From a virus, in IMG/VR virus record IMGVR_UViG_3300042691_009007, positions 1-39,704 of that record: a DNA stretch of 39,704 nt. One strand, given 5' to 3'. The notes beneath the pieces are model-generated. The model worked only from the letters and a program-made list of their open reading frames with translations. It had not been told where the DNA came from and did no database searches. The translations under genes and the position numbers were made by a program. Below are positions 1-39,704 of the stretch, one piece after another (within the stretch, counting starts at the first letter, position 1; every line of letters begins with the position of its first letter).

Positions 1-3000
1 GATTTACAAGCTCGAAGCCTTGAGGATTATTTTTAACAAGTTGTTCATCTATAATAAATTCTATATTTTCAAAACTACTACTTGCACCGTATTGTCCAGT
101 TCTTAATGCCCATTCTTCATAAAAGGTAATACTTTCTTGGCCTTCCGCACTAAGAACATCAAACAACTTATTCAATACATTCTGAGTACCTTTTTCAACA
201 ATCATCCCTTGATAAAATTTAAACTCACTAACATCATCTTTAATAATATTGCTGAGATATTGTCGCTTCTGATAGCCAATCAAATGTTGTGCCATAGCTT
301 GTTGGTCGGCGTCGAAATTATCGCTATCCAGGTTATAAAAATCTTGGAACTGGTTGGCCTTATAAGACCAATTTGGTAATAGTTGAGCCGTTGGCTTACT
401 ATCTAGTTTCATCCACTTGGTAGAAATAAACTCCTCGTTTCCAGGCATAGACGATTTAGCTGTATAGTAAAATTGTTTGTATTTTACAATATCACCTAAT
501 GCATAATTTTGCCACGGTTGCCAATCTTGAATTACTGCTTGGTCAAAAATAAATCCTGGAACATTAAAATCTCCATTCCAATTGCTGCTTAAATATCCAG
601 ATACTTTAATTCTTTCTTGACGATATCCGCTTGTAGGGTTGTATATTGTGTCATTAAATAGAGTGTTATTTTTTAAAACAATAATCTGTTCTTTCTGAAC
701 AAGATAAAAAGTAGCACCGTAGATGCCGTCTTCAACTGGAGTATAACTTACAGTATTTTCTTCTCTATAATTATTTAAAAATTGCGGTTGGATCGGAGAC
801 CCATCTACTTTAAATATTTCATACTTGTTAAATTGATTTCGAATATCATCAACAACTGTCTGAGGAGAAGAGAAACTAAGTGCAATAGCTGCTGGACTTA
901 GACTAATAACACTACTACCAATCGAGCTTAATCCGTCTAATTTAACATATTCGTTGTAATCAAAGATATTAAAAGGATCAATATTATTGATTGCACGATA
1001 GTAATCACCGTTATATCTTACAATTTGTCCTAGCATTACTGGTTGATTTTCTTGCCACTCTGACCACTTGTCTTCTCCGGTACTCCAATTTTGAGTAGTC
1101 CAAAACATAAACTCTTTTGCGCTTGTTTCCCAATTAGCAATAGCTTTTAATTCATTATTAAAATTATCAAAAATAAATCCTTGATCTTTTAAATATTCTC
1201 CATACCCTAACAAGAAGTCAACTACATCCTGGATAGTTCTAAGTTTTGTTCCGTAAGGTAACACTATCTCTTCAGTTCTGTCCCATGCTTGTCTAATGTA
1301 TGCATTTCTACCTCCAACAATAGGAAGGGATGGCAATAACGTGTAATAAATTGGATTGAATATTGTTTCAGTCGTATGACGAGTTTTTACTCTATAGAAG
1401 CGATTTGAATACGCAACGATTTTTCCAGCAGAGTATTGTTGCTCAGGTGTCCATGTAACATAGTTTTCTGAGACGCCGCCAATATTAATTTCTATACCAG
1501 TTTTAATCCAATTATAATATTTGAAAAACGGCTGGGTCTTACTGTAGCCTTTTAAACTAAATCCGTCTTCTAATTTTGTAATAATTACGCCACTGTAAAT
1601 AATTTTCTTAACAGGACTAGATGTATTCAAGATTATTTCATAATCTTCCGCAGGAACAAAAACACTTCCACTAGTTAATGGTGTTTTACTATCAAGAAGA
1701 AGTTTAAATTTCTCTTTACTTGTAAATCCACCAATCCTATGAGCAAGTCTTACTTGGATATTTTGTAAGTCATAAAAATATTGGTCATAGGATTTTAATT
1801 TGTCGCTCTGAATATAATCAACAAGATAGTTTATTATACCGCTTGTTTTGACATTAGTAGAGCTAGAAAAAATGCTAGGTAATAAAATATCTTTAGGTCT
1901 AATTCGTTTTTTAGTTTCACTATAAACTATTTGGCCTGCTAAGTTCCTAACTACTCTAGATCGATCCAACAACAAGCCAAAAGATTTAGCAGGTTGTGTT
2001 AATATCAGTGTTATTAAAATTCCAAAAGGATAGTGACTGCTGCGGCGCCAAGCATTTTCAACAGGGCTCACATCACCAAATACAAAATCTCCAGCTGTAG
2101 AATTTGTAACTATTCCAGACGCCAAGCCTGATTCAACTGGACTGAGTAGTTGTCCTTGCTGATTAACTGGAATATTTCCTTTTAAATATGTTCTTACATA
2201 TTTTTTAATTTGTCTTGGAGGAGTTCCAGGTTCCCTAACAATTCCGTCTGCTAAGTCGTCCCACAAAATTAAATTATCACTAGTATAAGGTGCTGGACCG
2301 TAAACTTGTTGCCACCATGCTGGTTCCTCGCTGAAACCTAACATTTCCCAAGGACATAAGTTAGGCCTGTCTGTTTCAAGCATCCATCTGTAAATGCCTT
2401 TCCAATAACCTGGAAGCGGTGTTCTTCCGTCTGGCGTAGCCATCTCTCGATAATTGTATGTTCGAGGATCTTGATTATTATAACTTAATGGTTTTGTAAA
2501 ATCTCTATCGATTAAATTTGCCCAAGAATAAAAATTAGTTGATAATACTTCGTCAAATTCCTTCAACGAGTATGCACCATCTCTATTATAAACAGGTAGA
2601 AAATCCCCCGCATCAAAAATTTCAGGATCGTATTTTATCTTGATATTATTGTAGATTCTTTTTTCTAATTCAAGAATAATTGCATCTCTGTAATCACCAT
2701 ACGCTAATACAATACTGCCGTCATGCCCTTGAATAACTTGTTGTGGAGTTATTAATGTTGTATCTAAATAAATTTTTGGTTCGTACTTTGGCCACAGACC
2801 CAACTTGGTTGGTGTAGGAGGCACAAAGCAACCGTTGGTGTTTTCAAATTCGTAAATTGTTATTATGTCATTATTGACTATGGGTGCTGATATAACTACG
2901 AACCCCTGATCATCAAATGTATAATCTTTACCGTGTAATAATTGATCGGTGTTGTTTAGATAAACTAAAACTGCTTTATTTGAAAGTTCGTCTAAATTAA

Positions 3001-5713: not shown

Positions 5714-8700
5714 TGTTTGCTCCGTATGAAGAACTTGATATAGTCTGTTGAGAAGTTGTGTTTGATGTTGATGTGGTTCCAGCTACAGATTTAATCGATG
5801 AACTAGTTATTCCGTAGATAATTTCAACATCATCAACTGTTGCGCCGTTAACAAATAGCTCGTCACCAGAAGATTTTATTTCAAACAAACTTCCAAATCC
5901 AAGTCCGCTAAGTCTTGGAACTATAACAAAACTTGAAATATCTGGAGATAACTGAGTCATTACATAAGCAGATAGTTCTGTGAAATAAAACGTATCACCA
6001 AAGTCCCAATTTTCTAAAGCAAAAAATTCTTCTATTGCTGATACAATTCTTGTTTTAATATCATTATCAGACACTACTCTGTTAGAATTTTTGATAACTT
6101 TAAAACTTGCCTGTACATCTGGACTTGCTGATTGTCCAAATAAAACTTTATAATTTGCTGGATGATATACTATCTCGTCGCTGATTGTTTTGATAAGGTT
6201 TAAGTTTGAAGAAATTAAATCATATAACTCATTTGAACTCGGTGGCAGTGGTCGAGTATCTATTGCACCACTTAGCCATTGTCTAAATCTTATGTCAAAA
6301 CTTTTTGTTAGTAAGTAAACATCTATAATATTACTTGCGCCTGGATCAATCCTGCTGTCGTAATCTGCATTATGAATATATTGAAATTTTAAATTATCTC
6401 TGCCAAGATAAACTTTATAATCTAAAGTAGGAACATACGGATCTGGTAATTTATCGTTGTACTTGAAAAGAGCATTAATATCAATAAAATAAAAATACTG
6501 CCCTGTTTTTCGTTCGTTTACAGATACAAAATTTTTACTAGCTTTTATAAGAACAAGTTGATTAGAATTGTCAATATATCGATAGTCTTCTTGACCTTGA
6601 CTTATTGAATATTTTTCTTGAACAATATATTTTTTCTGTAGTATTAACGAATCAGTTTCTCCGATAACTGGAGGTTCTACGATATTTAAAAATAACTCAG
6701 GATCGTCTACAACGCCATTGTCATCTGAATCTGCAAAAGAAACAATTAACTTTTTAGTATCAACATACCCATCAATGCCAATGTATTCTTTTTCTATATC
6801 CCATGCTTGATCGTATGTAAAAGCCGATGTGCTATCAGGTTTAGTATTAACACTTAAAATGTTAATCAAATCTTTTACTACTGCATTTGTCTTACTATCA
6901 TATATCTTATTGCTAGATTCAAAATAGAATCTAGTTTGAGTATCGCTTTCAAAAATATATCGTTGGCAGCGTGATATAACAGTATAGAATTCATTATCCG
7001 TTGTGAACAATAGTAACCAACTAGCATCTTGTCTTAAGTTAGTTTGGTCGCCTTGTTTACCCAAGCTAAACACATTCTTTGTATCTAAGTTTAATTCAAA
7101 TACAATTTTCCATTGTTGGGTCACAGCATCATATCTTAAACCAAATGGTTTATTTGAATAAATTAAATCTATCATAGTGCTGATTGTATCAGAATCAATC
7201 ACTGTTCTCCATTTTGGAATAATCAACGATAATTGTGGATTTACACCTGAGCCGGTTGTCAAAGAAGGAATAGTTCTATTCAGTGTCACAGGCCCAAATC
7301 CAGTGGACAATACACCGGTACCGTCTCCTGTGCCGTCATTAACTACATTTACTACTTCTGCCCATAATTCTGTTGTGCCGCCTTTTACAGTCGATGCTCC
7401 GTAGACTAATTTATTATTGTTTAATGTATCAAAATACCAACCAGCAGGAGCAGTAAATTTTATCAAGGCGCCTGCTTTAATATATTTTAAATCGGTTGAA
7501 GTAAAACTACCTACTTTGTAAATTGCATTTCCTGCGCCGGCGCTAAAATATCCTGTAGATAACCCTGTGTCACTTGTAACATTGGTCCAAATAGTGTCTA
7601 GGCCTTCTACGTAATTTAAAAATTTTTCATAGTAAAAGTTTCTTAAATCAACATTTTTTAAAATATCATTTATACTGTTATAGATAATACCTTCAATGTC
7701 TGTCTTATTAGTATAAGAAAATCTAAACGAATTTTGAAATTCTTCTTTATAAATTACTCCGTCATCAGAAAATAGAGTTGTCGAACTGTATTTTCCTGTT
7801 GGGTCTGAAAGATCAAAATATCTACTAATGCCGCTACTGGTTCTGTTAATTGCTTTTATTTTAGCTATTTGAGTACTAGCAGATAACGGACTAATGTTGT
7901 AGTCTTCTCCAGTAATCATACGATTTTGTGTATAGTATGTTTGAGGAGCGTTTGCTTTAATATCGTCGCTGGTTTCAGGAATTGCAGCATTAGACACGCT
8001 GCTGGCCAAATTCATTGATATTGTTAAATTTTCTTGCTGACCTGCATTAGAAATATACGGAAAAGAGATGCTTACATTTCTAATGTCTTGTGTATTAATT
8101 GTATAACTCAATGCGTTGCTTACACGATAATAGGTTCTAAAAGTTCCTAGAGGTAAGTCGCCAAATGTGCCATCACTAAATTGCAAACTAATTGCATCGT
8201 TAGTTCTAGTTATAACTGAAAAAATTGTTCTTATATTTTTATTAATACTATTATAGATAATGTTGTTAGCTTCAAAATTTGAAACACTAGTCCAGAGTGC
8301 AGATTCTTTACCTTCAGTATCTAGTTGATACAACCATACATCATCATTATTAATATTTTGACTGTCAATATCAACCGATTGATTGTTGCTTGGTTGAGTA
8401 ATTGTAAAACTTCCTGTATTAAGTGTTCCTTGTACAAACCTCAAGAAAAAACCAGACCCTGGACTGCCTGTTCCGCGGCCGTCATCTTTGTAAATGCAAC
8501 TTAGTTTATTTCCTAGTTTAGGAGTTTCTTCGTAGATGTAAGAACGCCCTTTAAATGTTGTACTAACAACTTCAAAATCCATGTTCCTGCCAGCTACTAT
8601 TTTACTAAAACCAAATACTGGTAGCCCTGTTGTGTTATTTTGAAAAATATATTGATCAACTGGTGTTCCGTAGATGATATCACTGGCAGCTGGATTTCCA

Positions 8701-9209
8701 AACTGTTGTGTCTTAGGAAATGCAGCATTTATAACTTTAATAAATTGGTCATACCAGTTAGCATTACTGGCATCATTCCAGTTAATTATTTGTCCTGATA
8801 AATTTCGTCCTGTGCTATCTGAAACGTTTTCAGTTGTTGAAACACTTGAAAACTTTAACAATCCGCTGGCAGCGACATTACGTTTAGCGTTATAAGATAA
8901 TAGTCTAGCTAGACGCAATACGCTTTCACGACGTTCTGCTAACTCTAAAAAATTGTCACGAGCATTTAAGTCAACACGGAAAGCTATGCTTTGGCCTAAG
9001 AACGCAATAAGGTCAATTAGGGCAAGGTATTCGCTAGACTCAATGTAATCATTATAATCTTCAGGATAATTTTGACGAATGTAATCAATCATTGTCCTGC
9101 GAAGATTTTCAAAATCGTAACTTTGGAAGTCGGCGTTTTTGAAGGATTGGTATATTTTTTTCCAATCTTCTGATATTAAAAGTTTATTTTGTCTAGCAGT
9201 AACCGTCAT
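5703..9209 (-). CDS. 6: Baseplate wedge protein gp6
   Basis: Protein of 1168 residues. The N-terminal ~150 residues (SEDWKKIYQSF, ESSEYLALIDLIAFLGQ, RVDLNARDNFLELAERRESV, LLSYNAKRN) are the characteristic start of marine T4-like gp6, the wedge protein whose dimers form the inner ring of the baseplate and start sheath contraction. It is much longer than T4 gp6 (660 residues); the middle is rich in beta/Ser/Thr/Asn sequence. The C-terminal part (about residues 1010-1130) has the alternating helix/strand look of the baseplate J-like region, and the last ~25 residues are Ser/Thr-rich and probably flexible. ATG at 9209 follows AGGA by eight bases and lies 18 bases after a late promoter box. It is fifth in the minus-strand baseplate operon. 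Confidence 0.9.
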   Translation of the reverse strand: MTVTARQNKLLISEDWKKIYQSFKNADFQSYDFENLRRTMIDYIRQNYPEDYNDYIESSEYLALIDLIAFLGQSIAFRVDLNARDNFLELAERRESVLRLARLLSYNAKRNVAASGLLKFSSVSTTENVSDSTGRNLSGQIINWNDASNANWYDQFIKVINAAFPKTQQFGNPAASDIIYGTPVDQYIFQNNTTGLPVFGFSKIVAGRNMDFEVVSTTFKGRSYIYEETPKLGNKLSCIYKDDGRGTGSPGSGFFLRFVQGTLNTGSFTITQPSNNQSVDIDSQNINNDDVWLYQLDTEGKESALWTSVSNFEANNIIYNSINKNIRTIFSVITRTNDAISLQFSDGTFGDLPLGTFRTYYRVSNALSYTINTQDIRNVSISFPYISNAGQQENLTISMNLASSVSNAAIPETSDDIKANAPQTYYTQNRMITGEDYNISPLSASTQIAKIKAINRTSSGISRYFDLSDPTGKYSSTTLFSDDGVIYKEEFQNSFRFSYTNKTDIEGIIYNSINDILKNVDLRNFYYEKFLNYVEGLDTIWTNVTSDTGLSTGYFSAGAGNAIYKVGSFTSTDLKYIKAGALIKFTAPAGWYFDTLNNNKLVYGASTVKGGTTELWAEVVNVVNDGTGDGTGVLSTGFGPVTLNRTIPSLTTGSGVNPQLSLIIPKWRTVIDSDTISTMIDLIYSNKPFGLRYDAVTQQWKIVFELNLDTKNVFSLGKQGDQTNLRQDASWLLLFTTDNEFYTVISRCQRYIFESDTQTRFYFESSNKIYDSKTNAVVKDLINILSVNTKPDSTSAFTYDQAWDIEKEYIGIDGYVDTKKLIVSFADSDDNGVVDDPELFLNIVEPPVIGETDSLILQKKYIVQEKYSISQGQEDYRYIDNSNQLVLIKASKNFVSVNERKTGQYFYFIDINALFKYNDKLPDPYVPTLDYKVYLGRDNLKFQYIHNADYDSRIDPGASNIIDVYLLTKSFDIRFRQWLSGAIDTRPLPPSSNELYDLISSNLNLIKTISDEIVYHPANYKVLFGQSASPDVQASFKVIKNSNRVVSDNDIKTRIVSAIEEFFALENWDFGDTFYFTELSAYVMTQLSPDISSFVIVPRLSGLGFGSLFEIKSSGDELFVNGATVDDVEIIYGITSSSIKSVAGTTSTSNTTSQQTISSSSYGANNGG

Positions 9210-9227
9210 GATTTATCCTAATAACAG

Positions 9228-9235
9228 TATTTATC
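9228..9235 (-). promoter_or_regulatory. T4-type late promoter GATAAATA before gp6
   Basis: On the minus strand the box reads GATAAATA, one mismatch from the T4 late consensus TATAAATA. It lies in the only sizeable gap (47 bases) of the baseplate operon, so gp6 and the giant protein can be transcribed separately from the upstream genes. Expected transcription start is about 12 bases before the gp6 ATG. Confidence 0.65.
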
Positions 9236-9256
9236 GATAAAAATAATATGCGTACT

Positions 9257-9700
9257 TTATCCTAACAATAGTCCGTTGGCTTGATCAAATCTCAATTGCA
9301 TTGACTGACTAATATTGTAGGGCAGATAAGTTAATACACATTCTAATTGTATACCTGTTTCATATTGTCTAACAGACACTTCGCTTGCACTTATTCTAGG
9401 ATCATAGTTTATAATTGTGTTTACATTTTCAACTATTAAATCTTTAAGCTGGTCTGTCAACGGTTCAAATAACAAATCCCAAATAATAGTTCCAAATGCA
9501 GGGTTCATTAATCGTTCGCCCTGTCTAGTATGAAAATGATTTAACAAATCCTGTTGGATTAGCTGAAAATCATATAAAGCAAAATTTTCAGTTTCTTGAC
9601 TAACTGTACTGAAACCTTTGTAAGTTTTAGGGGCTATAAGGTCGTTTCGTTGATTTGGTGATAAAACAATTTTATTGTATAATTTTGAGTTTTCGCTCAT
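9257..9700 (-). CDS. 25: Baseplate wedge protein gp25
   Basis: Protein of 147 residues, close to T4 gp25 (132). The segment around residues 55-105 (TRQGERLMNPAFGT, WDLLFEPL, DLIVENV, NYDPRI) is the conserved gp25/GpW core, including the EPL-type sequence shared by phage wedge proteins and type VI secretion TssE. gp25 sits at the centre of each wedge, clamps gp6 and initiates sheath polymerisation. The ATG overlaps the gp5 stop by one base (TAATG), implying translational coupling. Confidence 0.93.
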   Translation of the reverse strand: MSENSKLYNKIVLSPNQRNDLIAPKTYKGFSTVSQETENFALYDFQLIQQDLLNHFHTRQGERLMNPAFGTIIWDLLFEPLTDQLKDLIVENVNTIINYDPRISASEVSVRQYETGIQLECVLTYLPYNISQSMQLRFDQANGLLLG

Positions 9701-11175
9701 TATGGTCCCCTTTGCTCACTACGTCCTGGCGGCAAGATTTTTTCAAATGTATCTGTTTTTGTTGTATATTCTTGATATGCTTTGGGAGTAGCAATTGATT
9801 TTGTAGTTTCTCTATCAGTATTTTTAAAAGATACTGGATCTAAATTTTCATGATGTGGCCATGGCTCGTGCTGTGGAACACGCATCATTATTGATTCTAA
9901 GTCGTGAATACCTTCCTTGTTTGGAACTGTACAAACTTCTATCTTTTTTGTTTTTTCAGCAACTTCAGAACTGTTCATATAAATTTTTCCAGCAGTTTCT
10001 AAATGAGTTGTTCCGCTATTGATATGTGATGTTGTTCCGCTTGTAATTTTAGTATCTTTACCAGCTAGTGTTTCAATTTCAGAATCAGCTTCTACATGAA
10101 TATTATTTTTTGCTTTTACATTAAAATTTCTGCCTGCTTCTAAATTAATATCTCTATCTGCTTTAATGTTTAAATCTTTTTCAGTATGAATACTGATGCT
10201 GTCTTCTGCGTAGATATCAATTTTGCCGTTACTAGTTAGTTCTATCCAAGTTGTACCTCGAGCATTGCCAATGTAAATTAAATCTTCACTGTTGTGCATT
10301 AAAATTTGATGACCGGTTCTAGTACGAATGCGAACTAATTCATTGTGTAAAACTTTTCTCAAGCCAGTAGTTTCAAGATTTTCTAAAGAAGAATATTCAG
10401 GCGGACCTTCGCTGGCTAATGTTTTTCTTATAAACTTATCGTCTCCGTCGTCCATGACAAAAGTTGTACCGCCAAGTCTGCTTACTGGGACTTGTTCTGC
10501 CTGTCTACCTACAACTCCTATTTTTTGTGTAGGACCATTTTTGTCTAACGGTCCTGGAGTGCTAATGCCAAATACGCTACTTGGTATTTCTCTTCTTGCA
10601 CTGGATGTAGTGATTCCTCGTATGTCGTCTTTTAATAATCCTTGTTCTGTTAACACATCTGTAAATATATGTTTAGGTTTTAAAATTTTTGTAGTATCAC
10701 TTTTTGTACCATCATTTACTTTTCTATTGTACTCAGTTACAGGAACTCGGCCACTACCATCTACTGTAAATTTTGTAGCAGCTAATCCTGGAACTGAAAA
10801 ATTCATACCTTCATCTGGTACACATCCTATCCAATAGGCGTATTTAGGATCGTCTTGTACAAAAATTACAATTACAGTTGTGCCTACGTCAGGCGGAACA
10901 AACCACATTCCGTAACTTTTTTGTGTGTTAGGATAATCGTCTGACTGTGTAACACCGTCATACGGTGTTGACCCATAAAACGGACTCATAAACTTTGCTT
11001 GAAATGTTTGTCCTCTTGCAATAGTATTGCCGTATGATCTATGTAATCGTACTTCAAGAATTCCCATACTGGTTTTATCTTGATGTCCTACTACTTCAGC
11101 TAAAAATATACCTTCTTTAGGTCTATTGACACCTGCTGGGATTGTATCAAAGTTATTTGGATTTTTTGTATACAT
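9700..11175 (-). CDS. 5: Baseplate hub spike protein gp5, without lysozyme domain
   Basis: Protein of 491 residues. The N-terminal ~130 residues form the gp5/VgrG-type OB-fold (PEGIFLAEVVGH-like start, then SYGMWFVPPDVGT and DPKYAYWIGCVPDEGMN). The C-terminal part (about 290-410) is a run of alternating hydrophobic/polar strands (IDIYAEDSISIHTEKDLNI) typical of the trimeric needle beta-helix, preceded by the VgrG-like stretch RTRTGHQILMHNSED. T4 gp5 (575 residues) carries a T4-lysozyme domain between these two parts; here the linker shows no lysozyme-like E-D-T catalytic arrangement, so this is a puncturing spike rather than an enzyme. The start follows AAGGCGG and overlaps the previous stop by one base (TAATG). 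Confidence 0.9.
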   Translation of the reverse strand: MYTKNPNNFDTIPAGVNRPKEGIFLAEVVGHQDKTSMGILEVRLHRSYGNTIARGQTFQAKFMSPFYGSTPYDGVTQSDDYPNTQKSYGMWFVPPDVGTTVIVIFVQDDPKYAYWIGCVPDEGMNFSVPGLAATKFTVDGSGRVPVTEYNRKVNDGTKSDTTKILKPKHIFTDVLTEQGLLKDDIRGITTSSARREIPSSVFGISTPGPLDKNGPTQKIGVVGRQAEQVPVSRLGGTTFVMDDGDDKFIRKTLASEGPPEYSSLENLETTGLRKVLHNELVRIRTRTGHQILMHNSEDLIYIGNARGTTWIELTSNGKIDIYAEDSISIHTEKDLNIKADRDINLEAGRNFNVKAKNNIHVEADSEIETLAGKDTKITSGTTSHINSGTTHLETAGKIYMNSSEVAEKTKKIEVCTVPNKEGIHDLESIMMRVPQHEPWPHHENLDPVSFKNTDRETTKSIATPKAYQEYTTKTDTFEKILPPGRSEQRGP

Positions 11176-13361
11176 TATGATGTGCCGCCTTGACCGCTAT
11201 TTGGAGGATTGTTAGAATTAATAGTACTTTCTTTTTTAGCAATAGTTTTATATTCTTGGCCGCCTCTTCTAAATCCTTCAAGAACTTGTCTAAATTCACC
11301 GTTCCTAAAAAAGTTCTTTACAAGAGTGACACAATAAGCACCTGTAAATCCAATTGCAGGTCCTGCCTTTGGATCCTTTGACATGTCCATGTGATTAGGT
11401 CCTGCAAAGTTATACAAGCCAGTGGTTTGATTAATATCAACAGGCGTTCTAAAATTTACAACAACATCAACTTGGCTTGTTTGCCAACTAACTGAGCCAT
11501 CTTGATGTAAATCTTTAAATCCTGTCACAGGCTGTGCAACATAATTGCCCATGCCGCTAGTAGCAAACCAATAAGGATCACCCATTATTTCCATATCTAA
11601 CATAACCATATCATAAGGATTAGTAATTGCTTCGTGAAAAGTTTTTGCTAGACGAGTAAAGGCAGTTTCTGCTGCATTTCCTCCAGGTTGATCCATTGAA
11701 TTATTTGTAGCATCTTCTCTAGACTGTTGTCGTTGAGCTGATTTATCGTCGCCCGATGGTGCGGCACCGTCAGGTTTGAATGCTACCACTGCTTTTGGTG
11801 CAGAGCCTTGTTGATTGGCTTGCGGAGTTGTATCGCCTGTAGTTTCAGACTTGGCTCTAGTAACGCCAATAGAATTTAAAAAAGAATCGCTAGCATAATT
11901 GTTTGAAAATCCTACGTTGTAATCAATATTAAATTTTATAATTTCAGTATTTTTTCCTGTAAAAATATAATCGTAGCGTTTAATTGCTCTTGCTTTAAGT
12001 AAATCTATACCATCTACGTTAGTACCTGAACCTGCGGCTTTGCTAAGATGTACCTTGAACGGTACTACTCTATAAACAGCAATCTTTGGCATCTTACCGG
12101 TATCGGCATAATTTTCTTTTGTTTCTATATAATATATTTGTGTATCTATGCGCCACCATGTTACTAGTCCGTTTTCAGCTTGCGCCAATGCCTTTTTTGG
12201 GTAATCGCTTGCTATAATGATTTGATTAATGACTGAAGGAATATCCATTTGCTGATTAAATTTAAATGTTCCTTCGCTCCAGTTAGGTATTAATTTTCCC
12301 CTAAGCCATATTTTTAATTGCGGATCCCACGTGTCTATTGCATCTGCTGGGGATTGATCCGATTTTCGTTCAGGATTGAATCCTAAGCTACTGGTCCCAA
12401 TGTCATTAACATCTCCAGCGGCTTGTGTCAAGGTATCAACTGTTACACCTAATTTTTTTAAAATTTCTGCTGAAGGGCCAGCTTGAGGATTGATTACAAC
12501 AGTATTTGTTGATTCGTCTGCCCTATTAACTTGTGCAAACGCCTTACTGTCAGCTATGTCTTTTGGAAAAACGATAACAATCTGGTCTGCAATTTTTTTA
12601 GTGCCGGTGTCAACTGCTTCGTACAATTTTGCATTAACAACATTTTGAAGACTTTCTGCTCCAATTTGCAAAACTTCTTGGACTGTTTTTCCTTTAATAC
12701 TTAGATCGGTTCTTAATGATGCAAATTCGTTTGTCAGAGCAAGGCCGTTAGTTGCATAAGCATTAATCATATACCGTGTTCCTTGCTCTGACGAACTCAT
12801 CTGAATTGTTGCAAAACGAACAGGAATAAATCGTGTAGAAAAAGGAACTTTTTTCATTAATCCCTTTTCAGTGTTTCCTCTAAATTCAACACTTAAAAGA
12901 AAGGGTGCATCTCGCCAGTTTTCATACCCAGCTTTGTTAGCAGCTGCTTGTAGAGAATTAATGAATAATCCTATGCTGTAAGGCTCGTACACGTCAAATT
13001 GAATTGTTGCAACAGATGTTGTTTTGGGACTTGTATGACCTAGATAAGTTTCAAATGTTAAATTGTTAATAAAAAAATCTTGTTTTCCAAAATTTGGAGT
13101 TTGAATTCTATTAATAGGGTCCGCAAATGCAGATTTACAAATTATTGGAAGAACTCTACCTTGTAGATAGGATTGATCTGGAAAATTAAGTTCAGTAACT
13201 GTTAGTGGATGTAACGCTATTACATACGTATAACTAGCATAGTTTGATAAAATATTAGGAGCCGGAACACTTATACCTGCAGGGATTGATCCAAAACTAT
13301 TACCTAAAGAACCAGCTGTTTGAACAAGATTAGTTGTGGCACCTATTACATCAATTCCCAT
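11175..13361 (-). CDS. Baseplate hub protein, gp27-like by position
   Basis: Protein of 728 residues directly upstream of, and translationally coupled to, gp5. In T4 the partner of gp5 is the hub ring protein gp27 (391 residues). Recognisable features are a conserved first half (about 100-230: FINNLTFETYLGHTSPKT, FLLSVEFRGN, RFIPVRFA, YMINAYATN), a low-complexity Gln/Ser/Asp/Ala linker near residues 505-565, and a C-terminal block (about 580-700: YDMVMLDMEIMGDPYWF, GPAIGFTGAYCVTLVKNFF). Domains of the kind 'DMEIMGDPYW...Y' occur in hub and cell-puncturing-adaptor proteins that bind the spike. A structural hub role fits context well; orthology with gp27 is inference. ATG follows AGGAG by six bases. 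Confidence 0.7.
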   Translation of the reverse strand: MGIDVIGATTNLVQTAGSLGNSFGSIPAGISVPAPNILSNYASYTYVIALHPLTVTELNFPDQSYLQGRVLPIICKSAFADPINRIQTPNFGKQDFFINNLTFETYLGHTSPKTTSVATIQFDVYEPYSIGLFINSLQAAANKAGYENWRDAPFLLSVEFRGNTEKGLMKKVPFSTRFIPVRFATIQMSSSEQGTRYMINAYATNGLALTNEFASLRTDLSIKGKTVQEVLQIGAESLQNVVNAKLYEAVDTGTKKIADQIVIVFPKDIADSKAFAQVNRADESTNTVVINPQAGPSAEILKKLGVTVDTLTQAAGDVNDIGTSSLGFNPERKSDQSPADAIDTWDPQLKIWLRGKLIPNWSEGTFKFNQQMDIPSVINQIIIASDYPKKALAQAENGLVTWWRIDTQIYYIETKENYADTGKMPKIAVYRVVPFKVHLSKAAGSGTNVDGIDLLKARAIKRYDYIFTGKNTEIIKFNIDYNVGFSNNYASDSFLNSIGVTRAKSETTGDTTPQANQQGSAPKAVVAFKPDGAAPSGDDKSAQRQQSREDATNNSMDQPGGNAAETAFTRLAKTFHEAITNPYDMVMLDMEIMGDPYWFATSGMGNYVAQPVTGFKDLHQDGSVSWQTSQVDVVVNFRTPVDINQTTGLYNFAGPNHMDMSKDPKAGPAIGFTGAYCVTLVKNFFRNGEFRQVLEGFRRGGQEYKTIAKKESTINSNNPPNSGQGGTS

Positions 13362-26522: not shown

Positions 26523-27401
26523 ATGACTGACCGAACACAATTTGAAGCCATGCTTGAGGCTTTGATCAACGAAGATCAAGAACAAGCAAAAGAGATTTTC
26601 CACAACATCGTAGTTGCAAAATCTCGTGAAATTTACGAAGAATTATTAAGCGAAGACTTTGACGCTAAAGACGACGAAGACGAGAAGCACGACGGTGTTG
26701 ACGAAGCGTTTGGCGAAGAAGACAGCGAAGACGACAGCGAAGAACCAGCTGACGACATGGAAGGCGATGATGCTGAAGATGATGCTGAAGACGACGACAT
26801 GGGAGATGACGACGTTGGTGGCGATGCTACTGATGACTTGATTGGCGACGTTTCTGACGAAGAAGGCTCAATGTCTGACGAAGAGCAATCAGATCGTATT
26901 CTTGATTTAGAAGACGCTCTAGAAGAATTAAAAGCAGAATTTGAACAACTAATGGCTGACGAAGGTGACGAAGGCAGCGAAGAAATGCCAATGGACGGCA
27001 TGGATGCTGGCGCAGACATGATGGGCGGAGATGAGCCTATGATGGGTGCTGATGCTGGCGAGCAAGATGAATTAGCAAAATTCATGGAATATGTTGACAA
27101 AGTAGCACTTCCAAAGCACGGCGATAATGGTGCAAACACCAAATCAATCGTAGCTGGTAAGAACAACATGGGCGGCACAACAGCTAATATTGCCAAGAGC
27201 TTTTCAACAGAAAAGGGCGGCACACAAGGCGGTTTGCTAAATCCTAGCACTAAGGAAGAAAACTTTGGTAATGTAAACGTTCCAGGCGGCAACGCAGGCA
27301 AGACAGCTTTCAAGAAGAAAGAACCTGGCCACGGTGCTGAGAAGAAAGGTGCCGGCGAAAATGCTGACAACAAGTCATCATTAATTGGCTCACGTAAGTA
27401 A
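26523..27401 (+). CDS. 67: Prohead core protein, gp67-like, greatly enlarged
   Basis: Protein of 292 residues. The first 50 residues (FEAMLEALINEDQEQAKEIFHNIVVAKSREIYEEL) share the layout of the T4 gp67 N-terminus: a helix with L-x-A-I/L, D, then A-x-x-x-F and I-x-E-E. It is followed, as in gp67 (80 residues), by an extreme acidic tract (about 50-110, nearly all Asp/Glu with Gly/Ala). Unlike T4 gp67 it continues with a helical segment (LDLEDALEELKAEFEQL), a Met/Gly/Asp-rich region and a Gly/Lys/Asn-rich basic tail. gp67 is an internal scaffold component needed for head shape and is degraded by gp21. Order portal, small gene, this gene, gp21, gp22, gp23 matches T4 20-67-68-21-22-23. GGAG precedes the ATG. 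Confidence 0.75.
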   Translation: MTDRTQFEAMLEALINEDQEQAKEIFHNIVVAKSREIYEELLSEDFDAKDDEDEKHDGVDEAFGEEDSEDDSEEPADDMEGDDAEDDAEDDDMGDDDVGGDATDDLIGDVSDEEGSMSDEEQSDRILDLEDALEELKAEFEQLMADEGDEGSEEMPMDGMDAGADMMGGDEPMMGADAGEQDELAKFMEYVDKVALPKHGDNGANTKSIVAGKNNMGGTTANIAKSFSTEKGGTQGGLLNPSTKEENFGNVNVPGGNAGKTAFKKKEPGHGAEKKGAGENADNKSSLIGSRK

Positions 27402-27422
27402 TTAGACGAGACTATTAAAAAT

Positions 27423-28052
27423 ATGTCTTTATACCTCCGAGAGAATCTCAGTTTCAACGAAGCCAAAATGATCGTTGAGTCTGATGACAAAGATGGGAAA
27501 AACTTATACATGTCCGGGATTTGTATCCAGGGCGGTATAAGAAACGCTAACCAGCGTGTTTACCCTGTGAATGAGATTGGCAAGGCTGTCAAAACCCTGA
27601 ACGATCAGATTCAAAACGGTTATTCAGTTCTCGGAGAAGTGGATCATCCAGATGATCTAAAAATTAATTTGGATCGCGTCAGTCACATGATAGTAAACAT
27701 GTGGATGGACGGTCCAAATGGTTACGGGAAGTTGAAAATACTTCCTACCCCTATGGGACAACTAATTCGCACTATGCTGGAAAGCGGCGTGAAATTAGGA
27801 GTTAGTTCACGCGGATCCGGAAACGTCAAAGATGACGGTTCCGGTGAAGTATCAGATTTTGAGATTATCACAGTAGATATGGTAGCTCAACCTAGTGCTC
27901 CTGGAGCATATCCAACACCAATTTATGAACACTTGATGAACAGTCGCGGTGGTCTTAATGCCTTACGCATAGCGCAAGAGGTCAAGGGTGATCCAAAAGC
28001 ACAAAAATATCTCAAAGAGAGCTTATTAGGTATAATAAGCAGACTCCAATAA
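27423..28052 (+). CDS. 21: Prohead core protease gp21
   Basis: Protein of 209 residues (T4 gp21: 212). Prohead serine protease motifs are visible: catalytic-type His in GEVDHPDD (H75) and Ser in GVSSRGSG (S128 or S129), with the VDMVAQPSAPGA block (about 151-161) that follows in T4-like members. It matures the prohead by cleaving after Glu at I/L-x-E sites in gp22, gp23, internal proteins and itself. The ATG at 27423 has only a weak ribosome site; an in-frame ATG before IVESDDKDG (M16) is an alternative start. The gene lies 21 bases after the gp67-like gene and 13 before gp22. Confidence 0.95.
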   Translation: MSLYLRENLSFNEAKMIVESDDKDGKNLYMSGICIQGGIRNANQRVYPVNEIGKAVKTLNDQIQNGYSVLGEVDHPDDLKINLDRVSHMIVNMWMDGPNGYGKLKILPTPMGQLIRTMLESGVKLGVSSRGSGNVKDDGSGEVSDFEIITVDMVAQPSAPGAYPTPIYEHLMNSRGGLNALRIAQEVKGDPKAQKYLKESLLGIISRLQ

Positions 28053-33047: not shown

Positions 33048-36000
33048 ATGCCATTACTACCAGAAAACGTAGTAGCATTAGGTAGAATAGGCGGCCCGCT
33101 ACTAGACAGCAACCTTAAAAGAAAAAACGCAGGAACAGGCGAAGAAAATCTTGCGTTCGGCAACACATCTCTAGTTAACCCAACTGTACTTTATCTAGAT
33201 GTAATAAACGGCCGTGTGGGTATTAACACAGATACTCCAACTCATCCGCTCAATGTAAGTAACATACGAACAACAAATTTAATTGTTCCTACACAAACTG
33301 AAATAGAAAATTTTGTTATAACAACTAACACAATTCAAAATATTTCAACAGCAATAACAATTAGTCCAGATCAAACAACAGATCCTGTTATTGATATGGT
33401 CAAAATAGGAACTTATGATTATGGTTCAAGTGTAGCGTACTTGAACATCAGCGATCAACTGATTGAAAATATCAACAACAATAGTAATATTGAAATAAGT
33501 CCAAACGGCCTGGGCGCTGTTAATATTACTACTTCCAAATTATATGTTGATGGAAATTTTACAGCAACAGGTAATATTAATTGGGACGGCTCACTAATTA
33601 CATTAGGTAGTAATGACAGCGATAACGTAGTTTTTAATGCAGACGTAAACAGTAATATTGTACCTAATATTAATGAAACATATGATTTAGGCACAGCATT
33701 AAAACGTTGGAATACAATTTATACTGAAGATTTTCCAGTTGATAATTTAAATTTAGATTCTGCAATAATTAACGGTATAGACATGTTGCTTGAACAAGGC
33801 AACACTATCTATGTTAGTATATATGGAGATGATTTAAATGTAGGAACACATCTACACAACACTTATCGTACAGTAAAATATGCACTTAGTCAAGCAACGG
33901 CCGGTGATACTGTTGTAATTTTTCCAGGAACATACGAAGAAATATTTCCACTAACTGTACCAGCAGGTGTGACAGTTAACGGTGCGGGTATTAGAGCAGT
34001 AACAATAATACCTACAGTTGGAACAAATACTAACAATGCATTTTTATTAAACGGCGAAACAACTGTTAGTAATCTGACTGTTAAAGATTTTTATACAGGC
34101 TACGCATTTAGTTTTGCTAGTGGATTTACAGTAACCAGTCGTAGTCCTTATGTACAAAATGTTACAGTAATAACAACAGGACCAAATGCAGGTAACGGCG
34201 CCTTAGTTGACGGTAGTTTAGCCAACAGCTCCAGTAAAGAAGCCAGTATGTTGTTTCATAGTATCACTATGATTGTACCTAACAGTATAGGCATTACGGC
34301 AACTAACGGCGCTCGTGTTGAGTGGTTAAACAGTTTTACCTATTTTGCTGAAAAAGGAATTTACCTAACACAAGGTGCATTAGGTTTTGCAAGTCTCGGA
34401 GTCAAGTACGGTGCAGAAATTCGCAGTATTGGATCAGCAAACGTGTACGGAACTTATGGTGCTGTAGCAGACGGTGCTAACACATTAGCCTACTTGATTA
34501 GCCATAATTTTGCTTACATTGGTGCAGGAACAACTACTTCAAACGAACCTCATTTAGTAATTCAAGCTAATGAAGTGGTAGAGTTAAACAGTGGAAAAAT
34601 TTATTACGAAAGTGTTGATGCAAAGGGTGATTTTAGAATAGGCGATATATTCTATGTAAATCAAGAGACAGGCGCAGTAGTATTTAATGCTCAAAGCATA
34701 AGTTTTCTTCCTACCGGAAATATTACGTTAACTGGCCCAACCAGCTCAGCGTTTATTGATGCAACTACTGTAGATGTTGGAAATATACGTGTATACGACA
34801 ACACTATTGAAAGTGTTATTGGACCAATCAATTTTTCTACTTTTTCCGGAACAACTAATTTAAGTACAAATATATTTGTAACTGGTAATACAGAAATTTC
34901 AGCAGATGCTATTGTAAGAGGTAATTTATATTTAGGCAATCAAGCATCTGATACTATAACCATATATCCAGAATTTACACAGGATTTATTACCAGACGAT
35001 GTTGGCGGCCCGTTTACACTAGGTACTGATCCTAAGCGATGGGATACACTATATAGTTCTTTGTTAAATGTTGATGATATTATACAAATTGATAGTAATA
35101 CTATTGAAACCCTGACAACAGATACTGATTTAATACTTCAAGCTGCTGGTATAGGAAAAATTAATGTTGTAGATACTAACGTTACAGTTAATAACAACCT
35201 TACAACTGATAGTTTAACTGTAAATGGGCTATCTACGCTACAAGACTTAACAATTACTGGAACTACCTTGCAGACTGGAAACTGGGGACAGACTGGTAAT
35301 TTAGATTTAACAGGCGATGTAACTGTTAATATTCTTAAAATAACCGGGCTTACTTCATATTTTACTGTTCCTGATTTCAAGTTTGAAGGAAATGAAATTA
35401 GCATAACTGCGCTAGATCAAGATTTAAATATTTTTGGTAATACTACTGGAGCAGTGATTTTAAAAGATTCCGTAAAAATTTCTGGCAGCACAATTGAGTC
35501 GGTGTCTAGCTCACTGTTAAATCAAAATTTAACTTTTACACCTGACGGTACTGGAAATTTTATTGTAGATACAACAAAGTCTTTAAAAATTCCAATAGGT
35601 AACAATACTACCAGAACATTAAACGCAGGAGAAATTAGGTACAATAATGTAACTAATTTGTTTGAAGGTGGCGGTGCCACAGGTGGACTGATTAGCTTTA
35701 ACGGGCTATACGATAGTGACAGAAATACCTATATTACTACTGGAGGATTAGATAATACAATCTATTTTGGTATTAATAACAGCGTAAGAGCTACTATTGA
35801 TAGCACCTCATTAGAATCATCTAGATTTGACATAGGAAATATTCGTTTTGAAGGAAATACAGTTTTAAATTCTTTATCTGGAAATGATTTAATTTTATTG
35901 CCTACTGGAACAGGAAACACACTTTTAAACAACATAGGATTTTCTTCAGAAAGTACTATAACAAATCAATCAAATAGTCCGCTAGTAATTAAAGGAACAG

Positions 36001-36251
36001 GCTCAGGCTATATTAGTTTTGCATCTGCGGCTGCTGTTATGCTACCAATGGGTCTATCAGCAGAAAGACCACTAGCTACTGAAACGGGACTAGTGCGATA
36101 TAACACAACATTTCCACGTTTAGAAGTTTACACCGGCGACCCAGGCCAAGGAGAAAATGGTTGGGTAACAGCATTAGGCGAAGCAACCGGTATTGTAGAC
36201 GCAAACGTCATTGAAGGTCTTCTTGATTTTTGGACCCTGATACTAGGGTAA
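33048..36251 (+). CDS. Large fibre-like structural protein with pectin-lyase-like domain
   Basis: Protein of 1067 residues. N-terminus (residues 1-60) LPENVVALGRIGGPLL..VLYLDVINGRVGINTDTP matches the start of the 36400 protein. The motif YDLGTALKRWNTIYTEDF (about 213-230) recurs as FTLGTDPKRWDTLYSSLL (about 656). Between them (about 255-480) lies a DUF1565/pectin-lyase-like right-handed helix: YVSIYGDDLNVGTHLHNTYRTVKYAL and VVIFPGTYEEIFPLTVPAGVTV, then stacked Asn/Thr-rich turns. The second half is shaft-like beta repeats (TGNLDLTGDVTVN, LTFTPDGTGNFIV). Two G-x-x-RYN modules (about 863 and 1023) end the protein. Such folds bind or cleave host surface polysaccharide, but no catalytic residues can be assigned. 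GGAG precedes the ATG. Confidence 0.8.
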   Translation: MPLLPENVVALGRIGGPLLDSNLKRKNAGTGEENLAFGNTSLVNPTVLYLDVINGRVGINTDTPTHPLNVSNIRTTNLIVPTQTEIENFVITTNTIQNISTAITISPDQTTDPVIDMVKIGTYDYGSSVAYLNISDQLIENINNNSNIEISPNGLGAVNITTSKLYVDGNFTATGNINWDGSLITLGSNDSDNVVFNADVNSNIVPNINETYDLGTALKRWNTIYTEDFPVDNLNLDSAIINGIDMLLEQGNTIYVSIYGDDLNVGTHLHNTYRTVKYALSQATAGDTVVIFPGTYEEIFPLTVPAGVTVNGAGIRAVTIIPTVGTNTNNAFLLNGETTVSNLTVKDFYTGYAFSFASGFTVTSRSPYVQNVTVITTGPNAGNGALVDGSLANSSSKEASMLFHSITMIVPNSIGITATNGARVEWLNSFTYFAEKGIYLTQGALGFASLGVKYGAEIRSIGSANVYGTYGAVADGANTLAYLISHNFAYIGAGTTTSNEPHLVIQANEVVELNSGKIYYESVDAKGDFRIGDIFYVNQETGAVVFNAQSISFLPTGNITLTGPTSSAFIDATTVDVGNIRVYDNTIESVIGPINFSTFSGTTNLSTNIFVTGNTEISADAIVRGNLYLGNQASDTITIYPEFTQDLLPDDVGGPFTLGTDPKRWDTLYSSLLNVDDIIQIDSNTIETLTTDTDLILQAAGIGKINVVDTNVTVNNNLTTDSLTVNGLSTLQDLTITGTTLQTGNWGQTGNLDLTGDVTVNILKITGLTSYFTVPDFKFEGNEISITALDQDLNIFGNTTGAVILKDSVKISGSTIESVSSSLLNQNLTFTPDGTGNFIVDTTKSLKIPIGNNTTRTLNAGEIRYNNVTNLFEGGGATGGLISFNGLYDSDRNTYITTGGLDNTIYFGINNSVRATIDSTSLESSRFDIGNIRFEGNTVLNSLSGNDLILLPTGTGNTLLNNIGFSSESTITNQSNSPLVIKGTGSGYISFASAAAVMLPMGLSAERPLATETGLVRYNTTFPRLEVYTGDPGQGENGWVTALGEATGIVDANVIEGLLDFWTLILG

Positions 36252-36399: not shown

Positions 36400-39300
36400 A
36401 TGGCTGTTGGTCGTATTACCGGTCCACTCTTAAAAGCGAATCTACTTCGTAATGGCGTAGATCTGGCTTTTGAGACCGACCTTTTATATTTAGATGTTAA
36501 TAACGGCAGGGTCGGAATTAAGACGAGCCTACCTGACTACGACCTAGATGTCAACGGCACAACCCGTTCAACAAACTTAACAGCAACTACCCAAGCAGAT
36601 TTAGCTACTTTTAACGTAGCAACAGATACTATTTCAAGTAGTAGTTCTATTATTAATTTACGACCAGCCGGTGCTAATCCTGTAGTTTATCAAGGTAAAA
36701 TTCAAACAGGTGATTTACAACTTAGCACTAACACTATCGAAACTACTGCAACAGACCAAGATTTAGATATCAACACACTTGGCACCGGGCAAGTAAATGT
36801 AAACGCAAATTTAAATGTTAACGGCGATGTGCATGTAACAGGAAATTTACAAGTTGACGGTGATGCTAGCGGAACAATTACAATCGGCGATGCTGACACA
36901 GATAATGTTGAATTTAAAGCAGATGTTAACAGTAATATTATACCCGATGATAACGAAACTTGGGATTTAGGTAGCAATCCTACTTCTGGCGGAAAACGTT
37001 GGAAAACAGTTTACACTAAAGATTTAATAGCTCAGCAGATTACAGCATCAAATGTATTAGTTGACGGCATTGACCTAACGCAAATTCAAGGAAACATATA
37101 TTATGTTGCTACAACTGGTAGCAATTCTAATGCTGGCGAACACGAGCATGATCCGGTATTAACATTAAAATATGCACTTAGCTTGGCAAATGCAGGCGAT
37201 TGCATTTATATTTTTCCAGGCGTTTATCAAGAAATTTTTCCATTAACTGTTCCAGCAGGAGTAAGCGTTAAAGGTGCAGGTCTTCGTTCAGTTAAAATTA
37301 CACCTACAGTAGGTACACGATTTAATGATGCATTTTTGCTAAACGGTGAAACTACTATTGAAGATTTAACTATAGCAGATTTCTTTAGCACTTCGACAGC
37401 ACAAATTACTTTATCCAGCGTACTTAATAATCCCAATGCTTACAGCACAAGTTCAAGTGATCAATTTGGTTGGTCAGTTGCTGTATCAGACAACTATGCT
37501 ATAGTTGGCGCAGTATCAGAAGATGATGCAGGTGGGCAAAGTTCAGGTAAAGCCTATATTTTCAATACAACTACTGGAGCACTAGTACATACATTAAATA
37601 ACCCCAACGCCTTTGGTACAAGTTTAGGTGATCAATTTGCTTTGTCAGTTGGCATATCGGGCAATTATGCTATAGTTAGTGCAACTGTAGAAGATGATGC
37701 AGGCGGCACTGATTCGGGCAAGGTCTATATCTACAACGTGACCACCGGCGCATTAATACGAACCCTAAACAACCCCAACGCTTACAGTACAAGTGGAGGC
37801 GATTTATTTGGACGATCAATTGCCGTATCAGGCAATTATGCAATAGTTGGCGCAGTATCAGAAGATGATGCGGGTGGTTCTAGTTCAGGTAAAGCCTACA
37901 TATTTGACCTTACACATGCAAGTACCGACAGTACCACTTCTGTACAAGTTGAATTTGGTGCTGCGGATAATCTAGACGGAACTTTCACTATTGATCTAGC
38001 TAGTCTAGGTATTACTGATCCAGGCGCTTTGATTATTATCAATAGCGTAGATATTAGAGGAGACCTAAGTAGTAATGCAATCGAATATATAGATTTAAAA
38101 TTAAGTACAGCAGCCGGTTATAATAGATATATCTCAGGCTTTGATGATGCTACTTATAGAAATTTCGCCTGGCTTGGAGGTCAACCAACTAGTGTTGGAA
38201 ACGTCAATATAGATTACATAATTCCGCCTGACATAAATTTTAGCCCTACTGGTATGCCTAACGGATATTTTTGGCAGGTAAGACTTAATATAACAGTAAC
38301 TATTAGTGCATTAAGACATGTTTTAAATAACCCCAATGCTTACAGCACAAGTGGAAGTGATAATTTTGGTTTGTCAGTAGACATATCAGACAATTATGCA
38401 ATAGTTGGTGCATATCTAGAAGATGATGCGGGTGGATCAGGTGCAGGTAAAGCCTATGTTTTCAACGTGGCCAGTGGCGCATTAGTACAAACTTTAAATA
38501 ACCCCAACGCCTTTGGTACAAGTGTAAGTGATCAATTTGGTTTGTCAGTTGGCATATCAGGCAACTATGCTATAGTTGGCGCATACCCAGAAGATGATGC
38601 GGGCGGCACTAGTTCAGGTAAAGCCTATATTTTCAATGCAACTACTGGTGCATTAATACACACTCTAAATAACCCCAACGCCTATAGTACAAGTGCAAGT
38701 GATCAATTTGGTTTTTCAGTAGACATATCAGGCAACTATGCTATAGTTAGTGCAAACGTAGAAGATGATGCGGGTGGTACTAGTTCAGGCAAGGTCTATA
38801 TTTTTAGTACTATAAGCGGTCAGCTATTACAAACTATTAATAATCCCAACGCTTACAGTACAAGTGCAGGTGATCAATTTGGCCATATAGTTGCAATATC
38901 AGGCAACTATGCTATGGTTGGCGCAATAGGAGAAGATGATGCAGGCGGCACTGATTCAGGTAAAGCCTATATTTACAACTTAACAGGTACTGTAGAAAAC
39001 GGATACGCATTCCGTTTTGCTACCGGAATGACTGTTACTAATCGTAGTCCTTATATTAGAAACGTAACAGTAATTACCAAAGGTTCAACTACAAGTGTAA
39101 CCGATCCTTACGGTTTTGATAGCGGTGATGCAGGTAAAGGCGCATTAGCAGACGGTAGTGTAGTTAATGCTGCTAGTGTTGAAGCAAGTATGTTGTTTCA
39201 TTCAGTAACATTTATTACACCTAATCAAGAAGCAATCACAGCAACTAACGGTGTACGTATTGAATGGTTAAATTCATTTAGTTATTTTGCTGATAAAGGA

Positions 39301-39704
39301 TTATATTTAACAAGCGGACCTTTGGGTTTTGCTGGAGTTGGCCAAACACGTTTAAGAATTGAAAATCGTACAGGTACATGGGCAGTTGGTAATACTGTAC
39401 TTTATTATAACACTGACGGAACTACTTTGTTAGCCAGCGGCACTATTTCCAGTATCAATGGAAACTATATTAATCTAGCAGGCAAATGTTCTGGATTTGA
39501 AACAATTACAGATAGAGTTGGTAAAACTGTTTATGCTCAAGGCAACGCTAAACTTTCAACTAGTATTAGAAAGTTTGGTACTGCTAGTTTGGCTTTAGAC
39601 GGTACAGGAGATTATGCAACAGTCCCAAGTCAACCAGATTTTAATTTTGGAACTGGAGATTTTACAATAGAGTGCTGGATATATAGAAGCATATCTAACG
39701 TACA
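36400..39704 (+). CDS. Fibre-like protein with seven-bladed propeller inserted in pectin-lyase-like domain; 3' end beyond window
   Basis: Open for 1101 codons to the right edge. The first ~330 residues parallel the 33048 protein (VGRITGPLLKANL, LYLDVNNGRVGIKT, WDLGSNPTSGGKRWKTVYT, YIFPGVYQEIFPLTVPAGVSV). In the pectin-lyase-like helix, at the place where the paralogue reads DFYTGYAFSF, a block of about 535 residues is inserted after DFF. It holds seven 57-residue FG-GAP/integrin-alpha-like repeats and one 129-residue foreign segment between repeats 3 and 4. The helix then resumes (NGYAFRFATGMTVTNRSPY) and leads to a LamG/concanavalin-like domain start (FGTASLALDGTGDYATVP, FGTGDFTIECWIY). It is probably a receptor-binding or adhesin fibre. 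Ribosome site GAGGAG, own late promoter. Confidence 0.8.
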   Translation, partial: MAVGRITGPLLKANLLRNGVDLAFETDLLYLDVNNGRVGIKTSLPDYDLDVNGTTRSTNLTATTQADLATFNVATDTISSSSSIINLRPAGANPVVYQGKIQTGDLQLSTNTIETTATDQDLDINTLGTGQVNVNANLNVNGDVHVTGNLQVDGDASGTITIGDADTDNVEFKADVNSNIIPDDNETWDLGSNPTSGGKRWKTVYTKDLIAQQITASNVLVDGIDLTQIQGNIYYVATTGSNSNAGEHEHDPVLTLKYALSLANAGDCIYIFPGVYQEIFPLTVPAGVSVKGAGLRSVKITPTVGTRFNDAFLLNGETTIEDLTIADFFSTSTAQITLSSVLNNPNAYSTSSSDQFGWSVAVSDNYAIVGAVSEDDAGGQSSGKAYIFNTTTGALVHTLNNPNAFGTSLGDQFALSVGISGNYAIVSATVEDDAGGTDSGKVYIYNVTTGALIRTLNNPNAYSTSGGDLFGRSIAVSGNYAIVGAVSEDDAGGSSSGKAYIFDLTHASTDSTTSVQVEFGAADNLDGTFTIDLASLGITDPGALIIINSVDIRGDLSSNAIEYIDLKLSTAAGYNRYISGFDDATYRNFAWLGGQPTSVGNVNIDYIIPPDINFSPTGMPNGYFWQVRLNITVTISALRHVLNNPNAYSTSGSDNFGLSVDISDNYAIVGAYLEDDAGGSGAGKAYVFNVASGALVQTLNNPNAFGTSVSDQFGLSVGISGNYAIVGAYPEDDAGGTSSGKAYIFNATTGALIHTLNNPNAYSTSASDQFGFSVDISGNYAIVSANVEDDAGGTSSGKVYIFSTISGQLLQTINNPNAYSTSAGDQFGHIVAISGNYAMVGAIGEDDAGGTDSGKAYIYNLTGTVENGYAFRFATGMTVTNRSPYIRNVTVITKGSTTSVTDPYGFDSGDAGKGALADGSVVNAASVEASMLFHSVTFITPNQEAITATNGVRIEWLNSFSYFADKGLYLTSGPLGFAGVGQTRLRIENRTGTWAVGNTVLYYNTDGTTLLASGTISSINGNYINLAGKCSGFETITDRVGKTVYAQGNAKLSTSIRKFGTASLALDGTGDYATVPSQPDFNFGTGDFTIECWIYRSISNV
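37423..39006 (+). repeat. Seven 171-base coding repeats with a 387-base interruption
   Basis: Repeats start at 37423, 37594, 37765, 38323, 38494, 38665 and 38836, each exactly 171 bases apart except for a 387-base insertion after the third. Each codes a 57-residue unit LNNPNAYSTS-x3-D-Q-F-G-x-S-V-x-IS-GNYAIVGA-x-x-EDDAGG-x-x-SGKAYIFN. Nucleotide similarity between copies is high, so recent duplication or homogenisation is likely. Confidence 0.92.
37936..38322 (+). other. 129-residue domain nested between propeller blades 3 and 4
   Basis: The coding frame continues through 387 bases unlike the flanking repeats. It encodes a beta-rich segment (VQVEFGAADNLDGTFTIDL, ALIIINSVDIRGDL, WLGGQPTSVGNVNIDYIIPP, FWQVRLNITVTISAL) resembling a small beta-sandwich that would protrude from the propeller. 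No family recognised. Confidence 0.75.

Follow-up and report, generated by a model that had tools for sequence, protein, structure and literature searches.

A fibre gene at the 3′ end of the window probably carries a single-unit FG-GAP_2 propeller that is closed by strand exchange, sits in a turn of a T4-like fibre, is exchanged between genes and sites, and is a putative adhesion module (probability roughly 0.6). The window is the whole 39,704-base stretch of DNA that was analyzed and is an entire IMG/VR record, a linear fragment. The gene is a plus-strand ORF of 1101 aa (translation P0001) that is open at the 3′ end of the record, so the protein is incomplete. Its shell matches a PHROG family for which the baseplate role is an annotation only. 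Portal and major head genes are also present (PHROGs 213 and 138). Two 292-aa ORFs at 26523-27401 (+) and 26633-27511 (−) overlap nearly fully on opposite strands, and a search of the PHROGs with the plus-strand ORF gave no match. The features of the fibre genes and the insertion sites in related fibres are collected in Table 1.

Table 1. Features of the two fibre genes in the window and insertion sites of propellers in related fibres.
Feature	Position	Strand	Basis or carriers
Fibre paralog P0002 without propeller, empty site DFY/TGYAF	33048..36251	+	Translation, model
Fibre or 'baseplate wedge subunit'-like ORF	36400..39702	+	PHROG 13163, E 6.7e-106
N-terminal shell and first half of β-helix, P0001 1-329	36400..37386	+	L009 identity 55% over 316 aa; paralog model
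Linker and lone N-terminal strand (QITLSSV), predicted to complete blade 7	37387..37422	+	Model strand E113-119; integrin alignment from model residue 110
FG-GAP_2 repeat 1	37423..37593	+	Repeat count, Pfam
FG-GAP_2 repeat 2	37594..37764	+	Repeat count, Pfam
FG-GAP_2 repeat 3, strands A-B-C	37765..37914	+	Repeat count, Pfam, model
Nested non-repeat insert, ~129 aa, C-D loop of blade 3	37915..38301	+	Spacing, L009 alignment; no relative found
Blade 3 strand D (SALRHV), 3′ of nested insert	38302..38322	+	L009 alignment, model
FG-GAP_2 repeat 4	38323..38493	+	Repeat count, Pfam
FG-GAP_2 repeat 5	38494..38664	+	Repeat count, Pfam
FG-GAP_2 repeat 6	38665..38835	+	Repeat count, Pfam
FG-GAP_2 repeat 7, strands A-B-C only	38836..38997	+	Repeat count, Pfam, model
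Second half of β-helix shell (NGYAFRF...)	38998..39395	+	56% to L009 over 133 aa; 69% to paralog over C half
Start of LamG-like insert, cut by record end	39396..39702	+	59% to L009 over 103 aa
Site A	β-helix turn		Window, L009
Site B	Before NVTGNLHATGNI stretch		L014, also first block of L016
Site C	~20 residues beyond site B		L080
Further blocks	Nearer C-terminus		L016 second block, L028, L023

The repeat block and its host fold

The block covers approximately P0001 residues 330-866 (window 37387-38997, ~537 aa) and is absent from the paralogous fibre gene. The initial annotation located the insertion point by comparing the two paralogs, and this placement holds: the P0001 flanks ADFF...ENGYAFRF correspond to KDFYTGYAFSF in P0002, which is read straight through. 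The span that it gave for the block, 37394-39006, is roughly right and misses each end by a few bases. Seven 57-aa repeats occupy residues 342-866 (window 37423-38997). They begin with LNNPNA or INNPNA at residues 342, 399, 456, 642, 699, 756, and 813, each contains one EDDAGG motif, and their tandem period at the DNA level is 171 bp. A search against FG-GAP families, which had been proposed as a check, returned Pfam FG-GAP_2 (PF14312) at E 1e-68 with 227.8 bits against a cut-off of 23, in seven stretches. Pfam listed four families with E values of up to 1, and the classical FG-GAP model, PF01839, was not one of them. The repeat count, the EDDAGG motifs, and the PF14312 match bear out the earlier reading of seven 57-residue FG-GAP-like repeats, but the run is not clean. 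The spacing between repeat starts is 57, 57, 186, 57, 57, and 57 aa, with ~129 extra residues between repeats 3 and 4. The earlier reading overlooked both this nested insert and the LamG-like insert downstream; the block itself is confirmed.

The shell was folded separately using P0002 residues 240-507 and an alignment of 71 rows. The model has a pLDDT of 84.5 and is a tailspike-like right-handed parallel β-helix. VIA-align gave Z scores of up to 17.1 against the phage tailspikes 6c72 and 7eea, a Foldseek comparison agreed with a pectin-lyase-like helix, and a profile search matched the shell to rhamnogalacturonan lyase (E 3.2e-5). Over 285 columns, the shells of the window protein and the paralog share 59% identity. 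In the shell model the insertion point is at residues 108-111, between strands 100-107 and 113-117. The paralog model and the tailspike matches thus agree with the proposal that a pectin-lyase-like fold hosts the block, and they place the insertion at a β-helix turn. The helix is inferred to rejoin across the insertion in P0001 from the paralog model and homology, the shell region being of low confidence in the model of P0001 itself. A different fibre gene of L016 (ORF 8147-11971) carries an unrelated 87-aa insert at the turn that holds the propeller in the window, so this turn accepts various inserts. A LamG-like insert follows the β-helix in L009 and is absent from L103. The full domain of L009 matches Laminin_G_3 with E 1.3e-16 and 61.5 bits, and the cut copy in the window scores 16 bits against a cut-off of 27.6.

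Predicted fold and closure of the propeller

AlphaFold2 was used to model P0001 residues 225-1001 with an alignment of 23 rows consisting of the window, L009, L013, and 20 block rows. The model has a mean pLDDT of 64 and a pTM of 0.62; the block-mean pLDDT of the repeat strands is commonly above 90, and the shell parts of the same model are mostly low. Each repeat forms four strands, with the exception of repeat 7, which consists of strands A-B-C only, and a lone strand (model residues 113-119) precedes repeat 1. The lone first strand together with the three-strand last repeat constitutes the pattern of closure by strand exchange. All 50 matches listed by Foldseek in the PDB are integrins. The best VIA-align match superimposes model residues 112-638 on the whole propeller of integrin αV with a Z score of 37.5 (357 residues, 2.7 Å). 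Integrin α chains among the 50 VIA-align matches listed align from model residue 110 to ~640 with Z scores of 35.9-37.5 over 343-372 residues at 2.7-3.2 Å, and Z is at least 8 in 967 of the 977 chains aligned by VIA-align. A phmmer search of the PDB with the block sequence returned nothing at E up to 0.01, and the link to integrins comes via fold comparison only. The model supports the assignment of the block as a closed seven-bladed propeller of the integrin α type. The earlier claim that seven repeats close the ring agrees with the structure prediction, in which the ring closes.

Sequences flanking the viral blocks of the family point to the same closure. A D-like strand lies upstream of the first repeat in 14 of 23 seven-repeat viral blocks and downstream of the last repeat in 1 of 23. 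The threshold was one passed by 1% of 4323 random 8-mers, and the downstream value was the best of six offsets. Twenty-five blocks were considered, the window included, and L025 and L028 were skipped (the profile counted 6 and 8 repeats). The lone downstream exception is a block of L007 that was cut from a longer run. The window's own upstream strand, QITLSSV, is without a D-strand score by sequence and is outside the 14.

The integrin α heads (αV, αIIb, and α5) and the modeled block have in common seven four-stranded blades and closure by strand exchange. The block differs from them in having only 16-19% identity, in lacking DxDxDG, in being built of FG-GAP_2 instead of PF01839 repeats, in its location inside a β-helix turn, and in the nested insert of blade 3. 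In its predicted fold the propeller resembles an integrin α head; it is not an integrin. Integrin-like heads would gain in it a phage relative that is independent, soluble, and variable.

The nested insert (approximately P0001 506-634) begins after strand C (KAYIFDLT) and ends before strand D of blade 3, and the blade is uninterrupted in L009. Its pLDDT is mostly ~33-57 in the AlphaFold2 model, and no relative was found in viral contigs, phages, or Pfam. A phmmer match to the leucine-rich repeat protein 4r58 (E 1.5e-5) was rejected as an artefact; the best single stretch has an i-Evalue of 1, and the score is summed over a repetitive target. In the close viral group (L002-L031), the gaps listed separate one propeller from the next, coming after repeat 7, 11, or 14; that of the window alone interrupts a propeller. 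Gaps within bacterial propellers were left uncounted, as many resemble missed repeats. The nested insert might change or abolish the function of the propeller.

Distribution, exchange, and history

A scan of IMG/VR with the block returned 53 loci. Exactly seven repeats are present in 21 of 49 distinct viral ORFs (window included), 14 repeats in three, and 21 repeats in three; the remaining 22 have other counts, some being cut by contig ends and some belonging to a shorter-repeat kind. In 80 bacterial loci, consecutive repeats form 126 clusters, of which 68 contain exactly seven. Seven is preferred in both sets, in keeping with the needs of a closed ring. The T4-type major head protein (phrog_138) was found in 14 of the 20 records searched, so most of those records are T4-like phages. 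Triple propellers of 21 repeats each occur in L003 (4420-8358) and twice in L007 (1-3882 and 3886-7800), with the propellers joined mostly by ~30 residues, and a T4-type head gene is on both contigs. A giant-virus origin of the triple-propeller contigs was considered and rejected; PF04451 was found in 0 of 20 records, a result that carries no weight by itself as the control genomes were also without a match, and phrog_138 was found in the 14 noted above. In the ORF at 1-12597 (4199 codons) of L032-L035, FG-GAP-like repeats are scattered, alone or a few together, in contrast to the runs of seven seen elsewhere.

A separate scan with the shell yielded the 79 best loci among 437 relatives. The shell and block loci together contain 153 distinct shell ORFs, eight of them with repeats. 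The site used in the window is covered by 137 of the 153, and 134 of these have no large insert there. A propeller fills it in two (the window and L009, +404 aa), and the remaining one is the L016 gene with the 87-aa insert. The row for the window was set by hand in this count, the local alignment having run into repeat 1, and L013, which has the same site but is cut by the end of its contig, was left out. Five pairwise comparisons gave three cases of fibres with and without the propeller, at three sites, and all seven repeats are contained in each insert. L014 has a 401-aa insert relative to L057 and L058 and is 70% and 68% identical to them elsewhere; L080 has a 401-aa insert relative to L130 and L097 (71% and 70% identity); and L009 has a 409-aa insert relative to L103 (62% identity). 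The same fibre therefore occurs with and without the block, an arrangement that the initial annotation had suggested looking for. L014, L016, L028, and L080 have a propeller elsewhere and an empty site A. The four PHROG wedge families matched by the window are also those matched by L009, L014, and L080. The positions of the blocks suggest four to six insertion sites in the fibres. Judged from these alignments, the propeller acts as a cassette of exactly one unit that is swapped between fibre genes and between sites. The pairs with and without it are natural constructs for asking whether such modules set phage adhesion.

In a tree of 42 rows, a branch with a support of 100 divides the viral blocks from the 16 bacterial rows, and the blocks of the window and L009 are sisters (94). 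The word 'captured' had been applied to the domain; no recent capture from these 16 bacterial rows is seen, as the viral blocks group apart. The blocks that sit in fibre shells are spread over more than one group in this tree, and a single origin is compatible with the well-supported branches. The window and L009 are 72% identical in the block and 55-56% identical in the shells. A quick shell tree splits the two, and a tree that unites them is not rejected by the AU test (p 0.751). In closeness to the window shell, L009 ranks first of 71 rows for the N half but 58th for the C half. The split, the unrejected union, and the disagreement between the halves suggest a mosaic shell with a recombination point near the propeller, and allow site A to have been filled either once or twice.

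Related repeats are found in bacterial FG-GAP_2 (PF14312) proteins, many of them in Planctomycetota, where they commonly occur in runs of seven. They are 25-50% identical to those of the block, and the viral blocks are separate from the bacterial rows tested. The T4-like cyanophage 'baseplate wedge subunit' fibres (PHROGs 13163, 1469, 19601, and 32294) have the same shell, and in MED4-213 and ACG-2014f the wedge genes adjoin tail-fibre or other wedge genes. Among 40 tblastn matches listed, coverage is at most 34% of the query, and a query with the block only had no match in those listed cyanophage wedge records. FG-GAP-like repeats with 26-33% identity are present among the matches listed in two isolated phages, Cyanophage S-TIM5 (annotated 'virion structural protein and packaging') and Vibrio phage nt-1 ('FG-GAP repeat protein'). 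The S-TIM5 gene is a separate 407-aa ORF and not a fibre insert. Predictions of FG-GAP proteins extend to other viruses, including giant viruses. Ig-like domains are promiscuous adhesion-type insertions at varied places in phage virion proteins; they have a different fold and are small sandwiches in comparison to a strand-closed unit of 400 aa. Domain insertion in fibres and FG-GAP repeats in phages are thus already known. No description of a propeller inserted in a phage fibre was found among the open-licence papers searched. The structural case for such an insertion in the window is strong.

Putative function of the propeller

The proposed mechanism starts with the shared blade. In the model, the lone strand before repeat 1 and the three strands of repeat 7 fill one blade. 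Because they share it, the two ends exit the disc side by side, so that the unit can fit into a turn and leave the host fold intact, as the model and homology indicate. A large domain could in this way be moved intact into a fibre, the exchanged strand bringing both ends together. The topology, with the two faces assigned from that of propellers in general, suggests that both linkers exit at the C-D position and tether the disc by one face, which would turn the D-A/B-C face outward. The nested insert is at the C-D position too and would hence lie on the tethered face, leaving the D-A/B-C face free. Through this outward face the propeller would bind a glycan or a surface protein, either of the host or of particles close by.

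Variability was compared over 168 repeats taken from 24 viral blocks. Eight positions (11, 12, 14, 17, 31, 32, 39, and 40) have at least 2.8 bits, and seven of them are in the D-A (3-14) or B-C (31-42) loops. In the window's seven repeats alone, the C-D loop is the most variable with a mean of 1.31 bits, a value that the tail of repeat 7 influences. Over the viral set as a whole, variation is highest on the face predicted to point outward, which makes an adhesion module the most likely reading and an adhesion role plausible. Integrins hold Ca2+ in the A-B hairpin loops of some blades with the motif DxDxDG, and the initial annotation suggested that the EDDAGG loops may bind Ca2+. EDDAGG is located in the B-C loop, the A-B hairpin is a two-residue turn in the model, and P0001 334-866 contains zero matches to a DxDxDG-like motif (D.[DN].[DNS]G). 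The absence of the motif speaks against Ca2+ binding of the integrin type by the block.

The extension to strand-closed FG-GAP_2 propellers as a class is tentative and has somewhat less than even odds. They would be adhesion cassettes of T4-like environmental phages with 7n blades, four to six sites within and between fibre genes, a tether on one face, a variable free face, and a tolerance for nested domains.

Binding to general surfaces or polymers such as mucus, particles, or exopolysaccharide, which would hold the phage near its hosts with the propeller not being the receptor-binding part, is rather unlikely, although it is the nearest alternative and differs from the adhesion reading in target only. 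It would suit an extra module that is missing from most related fibres, and the LamG-like domain that follows the propeller in L009 is in keeping with it. A structural decoration or spacer that thickens, stabilizes, or spaces the fibre and binds nothing is less likely again. Such a role would agree with the absence of the propeller from most sampled fibres and with insertion at several sites, including those towards the C-terminus, which indicates loose positional demands, but a pure spacer would have no need for the variability that the viral repeats concentrate in the loops of a single face. That the propeller is an enzyme domain such as a glycosidase or lyase is improbable. The shell resembles polysaccharide lyases, and the propellers of some other phage tails are enzymes, such as the endosialidase tailspike, a precedent that counts in favor of this reading; the Pfam, Foldseek, and VIA matches listed are nevertheless of the FG-GAP or integrin type, apart from weak ones such as a WD-type propeller, and include no enzyme family. 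The adhesion module accounts for the outward variability and is preferred over these readings. An assembly chimera of the block, or at least of the nested 129-aa insert, might be suspected from a single metagenomic record and an insert without a found relative, but is very improbable, because the block is in frame with the same site and junction in L009, which is represented by five identical copies among the fetched contigs, and the nested insert is in frame, falls precisely between strand C and strand D of a single blade, and has a GC content of 0.370, near the 0.375 of the record.
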